Part shown: piece after piece, positions 2,365-17,928 of the stretch
Layout: each line of letters opens with the position of its first letter
How positions within the stretch are numbered: the first letter of the stretch is position 1
From: a virus
Virus record (IMG/VR): IMGVR_UViG_3300031951_001386
Location: 1 to 21,652 of that record
Reading direction: 5' to 3' (one strand)
DNA: 21,652 nt
The notes under the pieces: generated by a model
The model's input: the letters and a program-made list of their open reading frames with translations, nothing else
Database searches by the model: none
What the model was told of the DNA's origin: nothing
Made by a program: the position numbers and the translations under genes

Positions 2365-2634
2365 TCATGGGCGATTGGCGAGGATTTGCTCGATTCGCTT
2401 GGTTCGTTCGTCGATGCGGGCGAGGGTCTCGGCGCGATCGGCGGCGGTGGCTTCGATCTTTTGCAGGCGGGCTTCCTGCTTTTCGTTTTCGACCTCCACG
2501 CGGGAGACTTTTTCGGGGAGGATCCACCAGGCTTGTGAGGCGCTGAAGACGGTCGCCACCAGGGCGAGCGCGGCGATGAACTCGCCGACGCTCATTTTGA
2601 TTCCTGGCCGGTTTCGGACGATCTCGCTGCTCAT
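2365..2634 (-). CDS. One-pass membrane protein with coiled coil, spanin/holin candidate
   Basis: An 89-aa protein with one transmembrane helix (about residues 16-40, VGEFIAALALVATVFSAS) and a charged heptad-rich coiled coil (about 42-86, EKVSRVEVENEKQEARLQ onward). This topology is that of inner-membrane spanins (Rz) and of some accessory holins. Paired with the lipoprotein two genes downstream it could form a two-component spanin, although the holin lies between them. The ATG overlaps the previous stop as TAATG. An internal Met14 just before the membrane helix could give a shorter product. Membrane topology is clear; the role is inferred from context. Confidence 0.7.
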   Translation of the reverse strand: MSSEIVRNRPGIKMSVGEFIAALALVATVFSASQAWWILPEKVSRVEVENEKQEARLQKIEATAADRAETLARIDERTKRIEQILANRP

Positions 2635-4073
2635 TAGCTGTTCGCCTGGGCTAGGAGGGTGCCGACGATGTTCGTGGTCGCCACATTGGCTAGTCGGTCG
2701 GTGTTCAACAGATCCGTCTTCGCTTTGATCGCGGTGATGTTGGCCGATGGGATGTCTCCGGTTGCTGCTGGTGATGCGGGCAGGTTGTCGGTTTTTGATT
2801 TGATCGCGCTGATGTCGCTGTTCGCTGGAGCCGTGTAAGAGCTGCTGGCGAGGCGGGTGCTGACTGCGGCATCCACTCGGCCAAGCTCGGTGCTGAGTTC
2901 GGTGCGAACGGCCGAGGCTACGGTGGCGGCGCTTGGCGCGGTGGCTCCGGAGATCGGCGCATCGATGCGGGCGAGTTCGGTGCTGAGTTCCGTGCGAACG
3001 GCGCTGGCGTTTTGCGCGGCGGTTGGGGCGGCGGTCGGGGCCGTGTAGTCTGCCGAGGCGAGGCGGCTGCTGATGCTTTGGTCGATTCTCGAAAGCTCAG
3101 TGGAAAGCTCGGTGCGTGTGGCGCTGGCCACTGCCGAGGCGCTTGGCGCGGCGGTCGTGGGGATGCTGTCGAGTTTTCCGCCGTTGCGCTCGAGGTCGGC
3201 GCGCACAGCGGCGACCAGTGAGACTTCGGAGAGGTTTTGGTTTCCGATGGCTGCCACGATGGCGTTGAGGACGGCTTGGCCGTCGGCTTCGTTGAGCAGC
3301 GAGCCTTCAACGGCAGCCGCGATGGCGGTGCGCTCGGCGCTCGTTAGGCTGTAGCCGGTTTTGTCGGCGGCGGCCCAGACTGCGGCGGTGATTTCTGCGG
3401 CGGTCGGAGGAGTTGTCGGGGCTGTATATGACGAACCGGCCAAACGCGAGGAAACGGAGGCATCCAGGCGACCCAACTCCACGGCCAGCTCGGCGCGGAT
3501 GTCTGCCACGGTTGGGGCTGATGTGGGGGCGGTATAGTCTGCATCGGCCAACCGGCTCGAGATGCTGGCGTCCAAGTTCGCGAGCTTGGTCGAGTTCGCA
3601 TCCATCTCCTGGCGGATTGCTGTGACCGTTGGAGCGGCGCTCGGCTCGGTGTAATCAGCGGCGGCGAGTCTGGATGAGATGTTTTGATCCACTCGGCCAA
3701 GCTCCACCGAAAGCTCGGTGCGGACCTGTGAGGCGATGGCGCTCGCGGAGGGCACAGATGGCGCGTTGGTGAGGGTCGTTGTGGTGGCGCACAGGGTGAC
3801 ATTGGCCACGGTGTCGGTGGAGGGGTTGAAGGTGCTGGCAGGAACCTCGGCGGTGCCGGACCACACGATGCTGCCGCTGCCGACATTGGCACCGGCGCTG
3901 CGGAATGCGAGTTGGTAGGTGCCAGCGCTGCCGGTCATGGTGCCGCTGTAGAATCCGGTGCTGCCGACTTCGGAGAGCGAAATGGCAGACCCGACGGCGG
4001 AGCCGGATTGGTAGGGTTGAGCGGTGACGGTGAGGCCGGTGGTGGCGAGGGCGATGTTGAGTTCGTTTGGCAT
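2634..4073 (-). CDS. Repeat-containing tail fibre-like protein (479 aa)
   Basis: Residues 1-80 look like a beta-sandwich (GFYSGTMTGSAGTYQLAF; GSGSIVWSGTAEV) of the kind seen at the start of phage tail-associated proteins. Residues about 105-420 hold degenerate repeats of 30-40 residues with the core VRTELSVELGRVDQSISSRL followed by AxxYTAPTxAPT, six or so copies, interrupted by a unique insert (AAVWAAADKTGY to KLDSIPTT). The C-terminus has two IKxKTDxL segments and ends NIVGTLLAQANS. The pattern of a short helix plus Pro/Thr-rich turn suggests an extended trimeric stalk. It is the last gene before the lysis cassette, where side fibres or tip adhesins often lie. No catalytic motif is visible, and the binding target is unknown. 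Confidence 0.75.
   Translation of the reverse strand: MPNELNIALATTGLTVTAQPYQSGSAVGSAISLSEVGSTGFYSGTMTGSAGTYQLAFRSAGANVGSGSIVWSGTAEVPASTFNPSTDTVANVTLCATTTTLTNAPSVPSASAIASQVRTELSVELGRVDQNISSRLAAADYTEPSAAPTVTAIRQEMDANSTKLANLDASISSRLADADYTAPTSAPTVADIRAELAVELGRLDASVSSRLAGSSYTAPTTPPTAAEITAAVWAAADKTGYSLTSAERTAIAAAVEGSLLNEADGQAVLNAIVAAIGNQNLSEVSLVAAVRADLERNGGKLDSIPTTAAPSASAVASATRTELSTELSRIDQSISSRLASADYTAPTAAPTAAQNASAVRTELSTELARIDAPISGATAPSAATVASAVRTELSTELGRVDAAVSTRLASSSYTAPANSDISAIKSKTDNLPASPAATGDIPSANITAIKAKTDLLNTDRLANVATTNIVGTLLAQANS
2815..3770. repeat. Degenerate in-frame coding repeats
   Basis: This stretch of the 479-aa fibre gene repeats the coding text for the unit VRTELSxELGRxDxxISSRL plus a linker ending APT. 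Repeated plus-strand phrases such as GCTCGGTGCTGAGTTC and GGTGTAATC/GTATAGTC near regular Pro-Thr turns show the recurrence. Units vary in length and are not perfect, with one non-repeat insert near 3200-3400. They stay in frame, so this is protein repetition rather than a CRISPR or satellite. Confidence 0.7.
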
Positions 4074-9039: not shown

Positions 9040-9321
9040 TTATGGAGCGGTCGGGAGGGCTTCTAGTTCGGCGCGCTTGGCTTCGATGCGGGCGTCGAGT
9101 TCGGCCTCGTCGGCAGACCATGCGAGGCGCTCGCAAAAGAGGAGGTTTTCGTAGGTGACTTCGATTTCCTCGAAGAGGTCTTCCGGGCGGGGGAATTCGC
9201 CATCCGCCAGGACAAGCGTGGAGAGATCGCGCATCCGGCGCTCGATGCGCGTGGCGGCAGGGTCCCAGTAATTCACGCGGACAGATTGACCGATGTAGGC
9301 GTCTTTGGTGGTGGTGATCAT
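9040..9321 (-). CDS. Small hypothetical protein (93 aa)
   Basis: A 93-residue soluble protein coupled by ATGA overlap to the end of the 802-aa fibre gene. The N-terminal half (MITTTKDAYIGQSVRVNYWD) is beta-like; the C-terminal half is helical and acidic (ADEAELDARIEAKRAELEAL) and may form a coiled coil. Genes directly after tail fibres often encode fibre assembly chaperones, and its size and helical C-terminus are compatible with that, but no specific family is recognised. Confidence 0.7.
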   Translation of the reverse strand: MITTTKDAYIGQSVRVNYWDPAATRIERRMRDLSTLVLADGEFPRPEDLFEEIEVTYENLLFCERLAWSADEAELDARIEAKRAELEALPTAP

Positions 9322-11726
9322 GCGGTGGGTGAGGTAACGACGAGCTGGTCGGCGGCGTTGTGGTAGCTTAGGCGCGGTTGCCCGGAGGAGTTTTGTGAAA
9401 TTCTTTTGTGGAAAGAATTTCGAACGATTGATGCGTTCAACAGAGAAGAGTCTGCATTTATGTTTGCAAAGGAGTCTGCATCTATTGTGTTTTTGTAAAA
9501 ATAAGCAGGCGTTATTAAACGCGTTGCATTTTTGATTGTGTTGTATAGAAATTCAGCTCCACATGTTAAATATTGAATAAAATTTAACTCATTATATAAA
9601 ACAGCATTAGAAAAATTACAGCAAAGCAAATTGTTGCAAATATTATTTAAAAAATTACTATCGAAAATGCAAGAATTTGCTTCGTTTATTGTATTGTAAA
9701 AAAGAGTGTTGTTGTTTGAGGTGTTGTTATTAAATTCCTTTCCTATTTTGCATTGCACAAGGCCGACTTCATTGTTAAAAAAATTACCATCAATGTCACA
9801 GGTTTGTATCGTAAAATCATTTCCAACAACTGCACTTCCAAATTTATTAAATTGATTTAATGTCCCCATATAGCAGAAATTTGAAAAGAACATCAAGTCA
9901 GATGAATTGTTTGAAAATCCATAACCTAAAATGTTGTTTGAAAAAGCCCCTTGCACTGAATTGGTAAAACAAGATTTTCCAAAAACATTAAATGAACAAC
10001 CGTCTCCAAAAACATTTCCATTGCTTTCTCTTCCAAATGAATTGAAAGAACAATTATTTCCAAATGAATTTGTTGAGATTTTGTAGCCTATTTTATTGCA
10101 TTGGAATCCTGTTTTTGCATTTATGAAATAATTTTGCCCAAAAAATATATTGAATGAACTTCCTTCGCCGAGTTCAATGCTTGAAGAAGAGCCATAGAAA
10201 ATATTTCCGCGACCTTCTATTTTTATGTTAGTGCTGTGAAATGAATTTTGTGAATCTGTGGTATTTAGACCGTCTGCAAAAGTTGGTTTTTGTGCTCTCG
10301 TTGATGTATCCCAAGGGATTGAAATGTAGCTTTCTTGATACAATACAGGATTCCAATATTGTTGTGGCTTGCCATAAAATTGGCTGTATTTTGGCATGGG
10401 AGGATTCGATGTCTCACTCCAAGGCAATCTCCTAAACCATTTTTTTGGAATACAAAAAATAAAAGATGTTTCATTTAACTCATTAGTCGGGAAGTATGTC
10501 TGACTTTCCACAAATGGAGACACCGCAATCCACCAACTGAAATTCAACATATCATCTGGCGCTCCGTTTATATCTACGCGCGTAGCATCTGGGGCATTGT
10601 TTAAATTATTACTATTTGATGAGATAAATAGTTTTCCGTTGTATTTCACCAAATCTTTGCGACTATATGTATTTGATGATGTCCATTGCGGGACAGAAGA
10701 CAAATCAAGTTTGCAACAATTAAATGTCACATGTCGCCAATCGTATGTAATGTCAATATTTAGTTCCGTGGAAATTCTTCGATTTATCCACCCATGAGAA
10801 TTTGCAATGTTCCAATACCCATAACCAGGCGCTCCCCAAGGAATGTCAGAAAATCCGTAATAAATTGTATCTTTTGGATATAAATCAGAGTAAGAAAGTG
10901 GTGAGAAGTCGTTGTTTTTAATTGCAAAAACATTAAGGGGCTCGATCTCAAAACTTGTTATAACTCGTATGTCATTTGAACTCTGGTTCCACCATTTAAG
11001 CTGAAAGTCCGTGATTTTATACCACTGCCCGGGAACGAGCTGGTTGGCGTCTTTCAGAGTCTTCAGCTCGGCGTAGGTTTTTGAAATGATCAGCGCGCCG
11101 GCAGGAGGTGCCACAGCGGTGACTGCGGAGGCGAAGTCGGTGATCTGTGCGGCGGTGTGCGTGTGCTCCTCGGGCGGGAAGGTGCTGGGCTTGCCGGGGA
11201 GGTTCGCCCATGTGACGGCGGCCGTTGCCGCCTTGCGGATGGCGTCCCACACGCGCAGTGGCGTCATCCATTTCGTGTTGTCGGTGCCTGTCTCGGCGTC
11301 GGCCAGCGTAGCCTTGAGGTCTGGCACAGCGACCGGTGTCCCCTCCGTGCCGAGAATGACCGAGTTTTGCAGCTCGGCGGCCAAGGTGGCGGTGCGGGTT
11401 TCTTCGCCTGGGCGAGTGTATTTCACCTCGAGGAGCGCGGCGGCCGAGGCGGTGTTGCCGGGGAATAGTTCTTCCACGGCGATTGTGTAGAGGTTCAGCG
11501 TGCCGTCATTCGCAGCGGCGGCGAGGAACTGCGGGTCGCTGAAGCTACGCTTGAGGGCAGTCTGGAGCGTGGTGCCTAATGGAGTCGGGACGATGGCAGA
11601 GCGATCCACGAAGACAACCTCGACATCGATGATGTCTCGCCTCTTGAAAAACACGCGCTGGAGCGGCAGCGGCGAAGTCGGAGCCTTCACGAAGCGGCGG
11701 GTGGCGAGGTCGATGTAGAATTTCAT
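9318..11726 (-). CDS. Large tail fibre with AT-rich beta-helix-like body (802 aa)
   Basis: Residues 1-165 are the anchor module shared with the 175-aa paralogue. A linker with KPSTFPPEEHTH (179-190) leads to PGQWYKITDF (232-241), a phrase I associate with fibre and surface proteins. From about 233 to 777 the protein is rich in Asn, Phe, Ser, Cys and Tyr, with recurring N-N-x-F/N-x-F-G rungs such as NSFGNNCSFNSFG and FGDGCSFNVFG, suggesting a right-handed beta-helix with Asn ladders. The last 20 residues (GQPRLSYHNAADQLVVTSPT) return to the usual composition. The DNA for the body is strikingly AT-rich (12 G/C of 60 at 9541-9600). The role is most likely primary receptor binding, possibly glycan recognition; no catalytic site can be named. 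Confidence 0.85.
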   Translation of the reverse strand: MKFYIDLATRRFVKAPTSPLPLQRVFFKRRDIIDVEVVFVDRSAIVPTPLGTTLQTALKRSFSDPQFLAAAANDGTLNLYTIAVEELFPGNTASAAALLEVKYTRPGEETRTATLAAELQNSVILGTEGTPVAVPDLKATLADAETGTDNTKWMTPLRVWDAIRKAATAAVTWANLPGKPSTFPPEEHTHTAAQITDFASAVTAVAPPAGALIISKTYAELKTLKDANQLVPGQWYKITDFQLKWWNQSSNDIRVITSFEIEPLNVFAIKNNDFSPLSYSDLYPKDTIYYGFSDIPWGAPGYGYWNIANSHGWINRRISTELNIDITYDWRHVTFNCCKLDLSSVPQWTSSNTYSRKDLVKYNGKLFISSNSNNLNNAPDATRVDINGAPDDMLNFSWWIAVSPFVESQTYFPTNELNETSFIFCIPKKWFRRLPWSETSNPPMPKYSQFYGKPQQYWNPVLYQESYISIPWDTSTRAQKPTFADGLNTTDSQNSFHSTNIKIEGRGNIFYGSSSSIELGEGSSFNIFFGQNYFINAKTGFQCNKIGYKISTNSFGNNCSFNSFGRESNGNVFGDGCSFNVFGKSCFTNSVQGAFSNNILGYGFSNNSSDLMFFSNFCYMGTLNQFNKFGSAVVGNDFTIQTCDIDGNFFNNEVGLVQCKIGKEFNNNTSNNNTLFYNTINEANSCIFDSNFLNNICNNLLCCNFSNAVLYNELNFIQYLTCGAEFLYNTIKNATRLITPAYFYKNTIDADSFANINADSSLLNASIVRNSFHKRISQNSSGQPRLSYHNAADQLVVTSPTA

Positions 11727-16089: not shown

Positions 16090-16890
16090 TTACGCGGCCT
16101 CCTGGAGTTTGGGTTGGCGTTTCTTCAAGATCATCGCCATTTGCTTTTTCATTTTTTCAGCGACCACGGATTGCGCCATGAGCTCCTCGCTGGGGCGAAT
16201 GACCTTGTCGGCCCACGGAATGGAGTTGGTGAGTGAGACCGTGGGGCGGAAGAGGTTGCCGGTATTGTCCGAGACGCGGCCGAATCCTTGCTTGTGGCGG
16301 GTGACCCATTTGGGAATCCCTCGAGTGAGCGAGCCTGCGACAACTTTGCGAAGCTGGTTGGCACATTCAGCCCAGCCGCTCTTGGCGAGACCGGCGAGCT
16401 TTTGGCGCTCGATGATATATTTGTTGAGAGTGCTGGAATCGCTGGCGAGGTAAAATTTGCTTGGGCGTTTGTAAACGCGGCCGGTGTTTTTATTTCGGTT
16501 CTCTTTATGGATGCCTCCCATGGCATCACTGCCAACCACGGTGAAAGCCTCGGACCCCATGCCGATCTTGGCGAGTGTTTCGGCAAGGACGGTCCAGCGG
16601 TTCGCGAAGTAGTTTTTTCTCAGCGACGCCTTGAGCTTCTCGCTGGTTGTCTTTTGAAGGAATTTCAAAAAATAAACCGGCGGCTTGATGATGTTGGAGA
16701 TGTCCTTTCGGATGCGCTCGTTTTGCTGCTTTTCGCTGTCGGTTCCGAATGCCTGCGTGCGGCGGGCCAACTCCACGCAAAGAAGCCGAGCATTTGCATG
16801 AACGGCTGCCGGGATCGTGACCTCACGAATCTGCGCGTAGTCCTTCATGATCTGCTCGAATTTCAGATTGGTGAGTTTGAATTTTGGCAT
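16090..16890 (-). CDS. Hypothetical tail-region protein (266 aa)
   Basis: A basic, mostly helical N-terminal half (LKFEQIMKDYAQIREVTIPA; KPPVYFLKFLQKTTSEKLKA) and a more mixed C-terminal half ending in a Lys-rich helix (AEKMKKQMAMILKKRQPKLQ). It contains aromatic and Gly-rich loops (GMGSEAFTVVGSDAMGGIHK) but no membrane segment or recognised catalytic motif. It sits between the frameshifted chaperone and the tape measure, a slot usually empty in lambda-like phages. It may be a tail or tape-measure assembly partner. Gaps to neighbours are only a few bases. Confidence 0.7.
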   Translation of the reverse strand: MPKFKLTNLKFEQIMKDYAQIREVTIPAAVHANARLLCVELARRTQAFGTDSEKQQNERIRKDISNIIKPPVYFLKFLQKTTSEKLKASLRKNYFANRWTVLAETLAKIGMGSEAFTVVGSDAMGGIHKENRNKNTGRVYKRPSKFYLASDSSTLNKYIIERQKLAGLAKSGWAECANQLRKVVAGSLTRGIPKWVTRHKQGFGRVSDNTGNLFRPTVSLTNSIPWADKVIRPSEELMAQSVVAEKMKKQMAMILKKRQPKLQEAA

Positions 16891-16896
16891 CGCGGA

Positions 16897-17522
16897 TCAG
16901 AGTTTTTGGAACACGCTTTCTATCGCTTGTAGGGAGTCAAAAACCGCCGCTGGATCGTCGCGCAGATAAACGCGAGGTATGCCGCGGCTGAATGAATCGG
17001 CGTCCAGGATTTGCAGCCCGGCAGCATACGGGACTTCCCACATGATTTGGTGGAAGCCCCAACCGGTGACACTGGCGAGTCTGTAAACATACGAGGCGAG
17101 CCAGTTGGGGCTTGCTACTTTCCCCCCGTGGATCCGGTAGGCGCGGAGGCGTGCTGGGCGCGGGTTTCGCTGGCGTTGACTTTGTCCCACGCAGCGGAGA
17201 CCAGGCGGGAGAGTTCGTTTTGCTCCTCGAGGTCGGCGATGTTTTCGATCTGCCATTTGCGAACCGCCTTGTTGAAGGCGACGGGATCGGAATCCACGGC
17301 GAGGACATCATCGAGCGGGGCGGTGTGGACGAAGGCGAATGCGGCTACGAACCAGAACTCATCGCGTTTCTCAAGCATGTTCGAGCGGATGATGGAGATC
17401 GTGCCTGGCACGCAGGGGCGGAGTTTGAACTTTCCGGATGTGCGCGTGCCTTCGCGCATTCCTGCTTCGCGCAGGGCTTCGTCGTCGGTTTCGAGGTCTT
17501 GGTTTTCTTTCGTTTTTTTCAT
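16897..17522 (-). CDS. Tail assembly chaperone G-T fusion by -1 frameshift (208 aa)
   Basis: Predicted frameshift product. The ribosome reads the G frame to the heptamer G_GGA_AAG (17118-17124), slips back one base and continues with GTA GCA AGC, adding 73 residues: VASPNWLASYVYRLASVTGW and so on to IESVFQKL, stop at 16897-16899. The added part, with GWGFHQIMWEVPYAAGLQ, matches the T-domain style of tail assembly chaperones, where a W-x-x-P helix pair binds tube or tape measure. It has no start codon of its own with supporting signals; the frame upstream of the slip site is a nonsense Arg-rich shadow. Translation as a fusion is thus the only sensible way to express it. Confidence 0.85.
17054..17127 (-). 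promoter_or_regulatory. Programmed -1 ribosomal frameshift signal
   Basis: On the minus strand six G's and AAAG are followed at once by the zero-frame stop TAG (17115-17117). The heptamer GGGAAAG (17118-17124) is in the X_XXY_YYZ phase and is the same as the lambda G-T slip site. Four bases after it begins a stem: AAGCCCCAACTGG (17101-17113) pairs with CCGGTTGGGGCTT (17054-17066), 12 Watson-Crick pairs plus one G-T, with a 34-base loop. Slip site, stop and stem together form a complete signal. Confidence 0.9.
17115..17522 (-). CDS. Tail assembly chaperone G (135 aa)
   Basis: The zero-frame product of the chaperone gene. It begins with a charged Lys/Glu-rich stretch (KKTKENQDLETDDEALREAG), has a core around residues 30-75 (GKFKLRPCVPGTISIIRSN; FWFVAAFAFVHTAPLD) and a helical, acidic end (NIADLEEQNELSRLVSAAWD) followed by an Ala/Ser/Thr tail where the frameshift occurs. 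In lambda-like tails G and G-T coat the tape measure and recruit tube protein, and neither remains in the virion. Most ribosomes should stop at TAG (17115-17117). The leader is A/C-rich (AACCCAACCCAACGACAC) with no Shine-Dalgarno sequence. Confidence 0.8.
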   Translation of the reverse strand: MKKTKENQDLETDDEALREAGMREGTRTSGKFKLRPCVPGTISIIRSNMLEKRDEFWFVAAFAFVHTAPLDDVLAVDSDPVAFNKAVRKWQIENIADLEEQNELSRLVSAAWDKVNASETRAQHASAPTGSTGGK

Positions 17523-17538
17523 GTGTCGTTGGGTTGGG

Positions 17539-17928
17539 TTAAATGAATTTGGCGAAGCGCGCCTTGTCTTCGGGCGTGGCGTTTTCGGAGATGGAAATGA
17601 TTTTGCCGTTTCTCTCGAAGACGATCTGGCGGGGGGTTTGCTTAACGACGCTGACGAGTTCGTCGCGGTTTTTGAGCACGGCCATCATGTAGGCCACAGG
17701 AGAGTCGGGCTGGGCGGCGACGAATTCCTCGCCTTTGGCGAAGGAGCGCATGACATCGTCGGCGCGCTGGCCGGTGGGCGAGTCTGCGAGGAAGTGGAAG
17801 ACGGTGCTCTCGTCGCCGGATTCGCGCTTGATGCGGGTCGCGGGGCGGGCGGGATTCTCGAACTCAAAGCCAAGAGTCGCCAAGATGGCGGCGAGCTTGA
17901 GGTCGCGGGTGCTGAAGACGGCTTTCAT
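17539..17928 (-). CDS. Hypothetical protein, DUF5659-like pattern (129 aa)
   Basis: It begins MKAVFSTRDLKLAAILATLG, a pattern (T-x-D-x-x-L-A-A-x-L-x-x-x-G) that I associate with DUF5659-type small proteins, followed by a strand with aromatic residues (STVFHFLADS), a helix (DDVMRSFAKGEEFVAAQP) and a second helix (AYMMAVLKNRDELVSVVKQ). No catalytic residues are apparent. It lies between the tube candidate and the chaperone gene, so it may be a tail assembly factor, but the function is unknown. A strong hairpin lies in the gap upstream of its start. Confidence 0.7.
   Translation of the reverse strand: MKAVFSTRDLKLAAILATLGFEFENPARPATRIKRESGDESTVFHFLADSPTGQRADDVMRSFAKGEEFVAAQPDSPVAYMMAVLKNRDELVSVVKQTPRQIVFERNGKIISISENATPEDKARFAKFI

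Follow-up and report, generated by a model that had tools for sequence, protein, structure and literature searches.

The G and T reading frames

The window, that is the whole stretch of DNA analysed here, is a virus record of 21,652 bases. On its minus strand the end of a short reading frame, G, reads ...ACG GGG GGA AAG TAG C AAGCCCCAACTGG... and is followed in the -1 frame by a second one, T (Table 1). An earlier note, made from the letters of this DNA alone, had described at this place an in-phase G_GGA_AAG, a zero-frame TAG immediately behind it, a stem of 13 bp and 73 open codons in the -1 frame, and each of these numbers is borne out in the sequence. Its statement that the stem begins four bases later holds if one counts from the heptamer, but counted from the TAG the distance is 1 nt. 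One pair of the stem is a G-U pair. The T frame is open from 17118 to 16900, and its TGA occupies 16899-16897. A 27-mer taken at the G/T junction occurs as a single copy in the window, with 0 copies expected in shuffles. Upstream of the G start codon no Shine-Dalgarno-like sequence is seen, neither in the window (17523-17545) nor at the same place in relatives; the leader is A/C-rich and reads AACCCAACGACAC ATG in the window and in many relatives.

Table 1. Features at and around the G/T junction of the window.
Feature	Position	Strand	Remark
Candidate tail tube subunit, 120 aa	18004-18366	minus	from gene order only; similar-looking gene at the same place in L095
G, zero-frame chaperone ORF, 135 aa	17522-17115	minus	ends at the TAG right behind the slip site
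Slippery heptamer G_GGA_AAG	17124-17118	minus	in phase X_XXY_YYZ
Zero-frame stop TAG	17117-17115	minus	adjoins the heptamer (0 nt)
Stem, 5' arm	17113-17101	minus	AAGCCCCAACTGG
Hairpin loop, 34 nt	17100-17067	minus
Stem, 3' arm	17066-17054	minus	CCGGTTGGGGCTT
T, 73 codons in the -1 frame	17118-16897	minus	no start codon of its own; TGA included
Tape measure protein, 828 aa	13599-16085	minus	phrog_7025, tail length tape measure, E 3.8e-23

The order of the genes, with a tube-like protein followed by G, T and the tape measure protein, is the order of lambda V-G-T-H. In the window the tube candidate is separated from G by a 129-aa gene, and T from the tape measure gene by one of 266 aa; the PHROG search gave no family match for the tube candidate. 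Compared by eye, the 266-aa gene (16090-16890) perhaps matches a 229-aa gene of L095 (638-1327). There the 229-aa gene is situated upstream of the tube-like gene and T runs directly into the tape measure gene, while several close relatives carry still other genes behind T.

Conservation of the junction in relatives

A scan of viral contigs with the predicted fusion yielded 48 loci with G homologues of the same length and position, and in all of these loci that are long enough to be judged the heptamer is directly followed by TAG, with a T homologue present in the -1 frame. Separate T and G profiles reached much further. A scan with G only, which has no bias towards T, resulted in 80 loci, again with G homologues of unchanged length and position, and T lies in the -1 frame beside the stop in all of them (80/80). 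Altogether the family comprises 110 distinct junctions, the window counted, to which one Porphyromonas phage can be added as an outlier (111).

In each of the 110 junctions a slippery heptamer directly adjoins the zero-frame stop (0 nt) and a T homologue follows downstream in the -1 frame. Six heptamers occur: AAAAAAC (33 junctions), GGGAAAG (27), GGGAAAC (23), GGGGGAG (16), CCCAAAC (9) and AAAAAAG (2). The canonical form X_XXY_YYZ is thus found in 94 of the 110, and the remaining 16 have GGGGGAG. The stop codon is TAG in 81 junctions, TAA in 27 and TGA in two. In a quick tree built from 107 G+T rows, with some long branches, the heptamer changed at least eight times and the stop at least six times, with the distance between them constant at 0 nt. 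The abutting stop, regarded before as a notable variant, is therefore real but not peculiar to this phage, being invariant across the whole family. The earlier note had further proposed to look for conservation of slip site and stem in relatives, and had named their loss by drift, while both frames stay conserved, as an argument against the signal. The heptamer stands at the stop in all 110 junctions and the stem is kept by compensatory changes (see below), so that both elements persist along with the two frames. It is this conservation across the family, and not the fold of a single sequence, which places the signal far beyond chance.

In one further contig, L219, the frame relation is broken around 1987-2010. 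Compared to L204, 34 nt are absent between the stem arms and T leaves the -1 frame; this loss is either a deletion of the hairpin or an assembly artefact.

The stem downstream of the slip site

Taken alone, the hairpin of the window is mildly unusual in comparison to dinucleotide shuffles (z -1.35). Because this z value is too blunt a measure, a control with synonymous recoding was added. Against recodings which preserve T the window reaches a z of -2.7, with 10 of 10 core pairs formed where 7.6 are expected. For 53 distinct proteins the same kind of control gives 9.4 of 10 core pairs kept versus 7.3, and a mean dG z of -2.6. We also considered whether the conserved SPNW and TGWG residues account for the stem, and according to the recoding control they do not fully do so.

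Pairing across the relatives was scored on the structure fixed from the window. The paired cells amount to 87.4%, and to 55.6% at most when one arm is slid by 1-3 columns. Double changes were observed in 70 cells versus 35.4 +/- 3.6 in shuffles; as the shuffles are blind to relatedness, the slid control and the recoding control weigh more. Column pair 15-68 switches from C-G to G-C (10 sequences), pair 14-69 from G-C to C-G (23) and pair 20-63 from A-U to G-C (26). In the pairs 20-63 and 15-68 a synonymous change in one arm pairs with an amino acid change in the other, for example the replacement of Asn in SPNW by Gly or Ser together with a change of GGT to GGC. Judged from these alignments, the stem is real and has undergone compensatory changes. 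In the AAAAAAG branch (L102, L105) the conserved stem has been lost.

Coding in both frames

Past the slip site the pN/pS values of the -1 frame are 0.14 in the GGGAAAG group, 0.20 in the GGGGGAG group and 0.34 in the AAAAAAC group, and those of the other two frames exceed 1.2. Upstream of the slip site no constraint on the -1 frame is visible. Purifying selection acts on the zero frame up to the slip site and on the -1 frame beyond it. The first codon of T is CTA in 63 members of the family, GTA in 45 and CTG in two. With GTA accounting for 7-9% of the Val codons and CTA for 5-10% of the Leu codons these are rare choices; it is this codon that spells the zero-frame stop.

Comparison with known frameshifting genes

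The window shares with lambda G/G-T the in-phase G_GGA_AAG near the end of G, a short T in the -1 frame and, if the tube candidate is the tube gene, the site between the tube and tape measure genes. The G proteins are of similar size (140 aa in lambda, 135 aa in the window), whereas the distance between heptamer and stop is 15 nt in lambda and 0 nt here, and T comprises 144 aa in the lambda annotation and 73 aa here. A conserved, covarying stem has been shown for the family of the window, and sequence similarity to lambda is not detectable. Lambda produces G and G-T in a ratio of about 30:1, G binding the tape measure protein and T the tube protein (PMC5009743), and for chaperone ORFs of this kind a low sequence similarity between phages is known (PMC5009743). 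HK97 has an annotated -1 frameshift join of gp13/gp14 upstream of the tape measure gene as well, but the last 90 nt contain no canonical in-phase XXXYYYZ, only a slip-like GAA AAG 15 nt before the stop, and again sequence similarity to the window is missing. In actinobacteriophages the motif GGGGGAA (PRFect 'fivetwo' motif) is one base off the GGGGGAG of one subfamily here, with a mean distance from slip site to stop of 26 nt compared to 0 nt (PMC10885494).

The term "lambda-like", which had been applied to the locus before, is accordingly appropriate for its anatomy and gene order but not in the sense of homology: G and T have no match in Pfam or PHROG, and their profiles do not match the lambda or HK97 chaperones. 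The locus has the coding features of a lambda-type G/G-T pair and would work like one. A tblastn search with G of the window and of L102 against annotated phages gave no matches. Searches with the G model (pLDDT 65.5) found nothing significant in PDB or BFVD, with no matches above noise, and the fold thus neither supports nor opposes a relationship. The T model consists of three helices (pLDDT 71.8).

The best tblastn matches of T among annotated phages are Porphyromonas phages (E 0.1). Phages of Porphyromonas, Bacteroides and Riemerella possess a T-like motif in the -1 frame just past a G-like ORF, the one of Porphyromonas belonging to phrog_11996. These T-like ORFs have at most 31% identity to T of the window, at E values of about 0.1, and where a slip site can be recognized one sense codon precedes the stop, as in the Porphyromonas site A_AAG_GGG, which is followed by AGT TAA. 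Such pairs of a G-like ORF and a T-like stretch are located at 3456-3701 in L159 (PP754930.1, Porphyromonas phage), 1001-1731 in L302 (BK010646.1, Bacteroides phage p00), 1037-1701 in L303 (HQ396194.1, Riemerella phage RAP44) and 836-1725 in L304 (ON453897.1, Bacteroides phage Versailles). In all four the annotators omitted T or assigned an internal start to it, and they look like unannotated -1 frameshift chaperones.

Proposed mechanism and alternative explanations

We consider it very probable that a tail assembly chaperone is made from this junction by programmed -1 ribosomal frameshifting of the type known for lambda G/G-T. The assignment as a G/G-T chaperone in the earlier note gains support from the conservation, the dual coding and the covariation of the stem in the sequences. 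The course of events that we infer includes the slippage itself, its rate, the partners of G and G-T and a role in length control. The majority of the ribosomes would read G and terminate at the TAG right behind the slip site, and their product would be the 135-aa chaperone. A smaller share, held up by the hairpin, would go back one base on G_GGA_AAG, where GGA AAG re-pairs as GGG AAA and still codes for Gly-Lys. These ribosomes would read 73 more codons, resulting in a G-T fusion with a predicted length of 208 aa and the junction ...TGGK-VASPN.... By analogy to lambda, G might coat the tape measure protein, with the T part of the fusion recruiting the tube protein, and in that case the ratio of G to G-T would matter for tail length and assembly.

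T could instead be made alone, without any fusion, if ribosomes re-initiated behind the G stop or used an internal or non-standard start. In the window the -1 frame is indeed open upstream of the slip site and contains an ATG at 17256, and in Bacteroides phage p00, Riemerella phage RAP44 and Bacteroides phage Versailles the T-like -1 ORF was annotated as a gene of its own with an internal start. However, in 81 of the 110 relatives the -1 frame contains no ATG, GTG or TTG from its last upstream stop to the slip site, a region in which this frame is not under selection. The first start within T is found at shifting codons, mostly codon 26 but also 7, 11, 14, 17 or 35, and in most cases falls behind highly conserved residues. 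A T gene with its own start in relatives had been named beforehand as evidence against the frameshift; none of the relatives has such a start just past the slip site, and we give a separately made T little chance.

Still less credit is due to transcriptional slippage, in which the polymerase and not the ribosome would produce the -1 product on runs of G and A. The G6A3 at the site of the window and the six-A run of the AAAAAAC relatives would suit it, but many relatives have merely G3A3 or C3A3, and the conserved RNA stem downstream fits slippage of the ribosome rather than of the polymerase. The idea that a single G-T gene was broken into two frames by an error of assembly or sequencing deserves practically no weight. 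Nothing in the window points to it, and among the contigs only L219 with its pattern-breaking 34-nt loop deletion does, while the same frame relation recurs in 110 distinct junctions with six heptamers; the relatives have already refuted this explanation. The preferred reading therefore remains the ribosomal frameshift.

The stop codon next to the slip site

A stop right behind the heptamer occurs naturally in RSV and BYDV (PMC4373837). This intercodon layout, with the stop immediately 3' of the heptamer, is present in 110/110 junctions of our family; RSV and BYDV are eukaryotic RNA viruses with unrelated genes, and common descent is not implied. With a stop placed at this position of the HIV-1 site, slippage competes with the release factor in E. 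coli and in human cells (PMC4373837).

For the phage family it is fairly probable that the abutting stop is merely the end of G and has no part in setting the frameshift rate. It would be kept because no other zero-frame stop is near and its loss would add a long out-of-frame tail. In agreement with this, 68 of the 111 junctions lack a further zero-frame stop within the roughly 35 codons examined, and the others have one at a distance of 13 codons or more. Furthermore, a stop at this place lowers frameshifting in HIV-1 reporters, so it is not needed as a help (PMC4373837). On the other hand, the distance remains 0 nt in 110/110 junctions despite repeated changes of both heptamer and stop codon, whereas elsewhere it drifts: it is 15 nt in lambda and HK97, and two phage sets, SEA-PHAGES and the Xu set, have means of 26 and 36 nt (PMC10885494). 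As the stop occupies the A site once the heptamer has moved on, any late slip would have to compete with the release factor. It is conceivable, if rather doubtful, that the stop itself functions in the signal, with slippage happening at least partly after translocation while the stop is in the A site, and with this competition setting the ratio of G to G-T. The fixed distance under repeated rewriting leans towards such a ratio-setting stop, yet the end of G suffices to explain it. If the stop is a working part, the ratio of G to G-T could track the termination capacity of the host, and the family would keep the layout while exchanging heptamers, including GGGGGAG with its G-U re-pairing.

The 16 GGGGGAG junctions read TCG GGG GAG TAG and do not fit X_XXY_YYZ. 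tRNA-Glu on GAG would have no standard re-pairing with GGA, which one G-U pair can allow; for GGGGGAA of actinobacteriophages G-U re-pairing has been proposed as well (PMC10885494). As T is under purifying selection in this group too, some change of frame must still occur.

Implications, host and further genes

Most likely a chaperone family without Pfam or PHROG model joins the frameshifting tail chaperones, the trick itself being known from lambda. Ordinary gene callers would split the G-T signal in two. The family offers a natural series of variants of one conserved junction: the heptamer takes six forms and the stop codon three, the stem covaries, and the stop always stands at 0 nt. This makes possible a direct test of the role of each part, and of release factor competition at a natural site of a bacterial virus; the published tests of such competition that we found used stop codons engineered into HIV-1 sites (PMC4373837).

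In a genome scan one contig of a Verrucomicrobia MAG was found to carry a copy with 99% identity in G, and a profile search in 388 genomes of the Verrucomicrobia phylum revealed no further copy. With this lone contig among the genomes searched, a host in the Verrucomicrobiota is suggested. Two further genes of the window are probably tail fibre or adhesin genes. The product of one (9318-11726) has 802 aa and a very high content of Asn and Ser; that of the other (2634-4073) has 479 aa and contains many imperfect repeats of the type SRLADADYTAPT.
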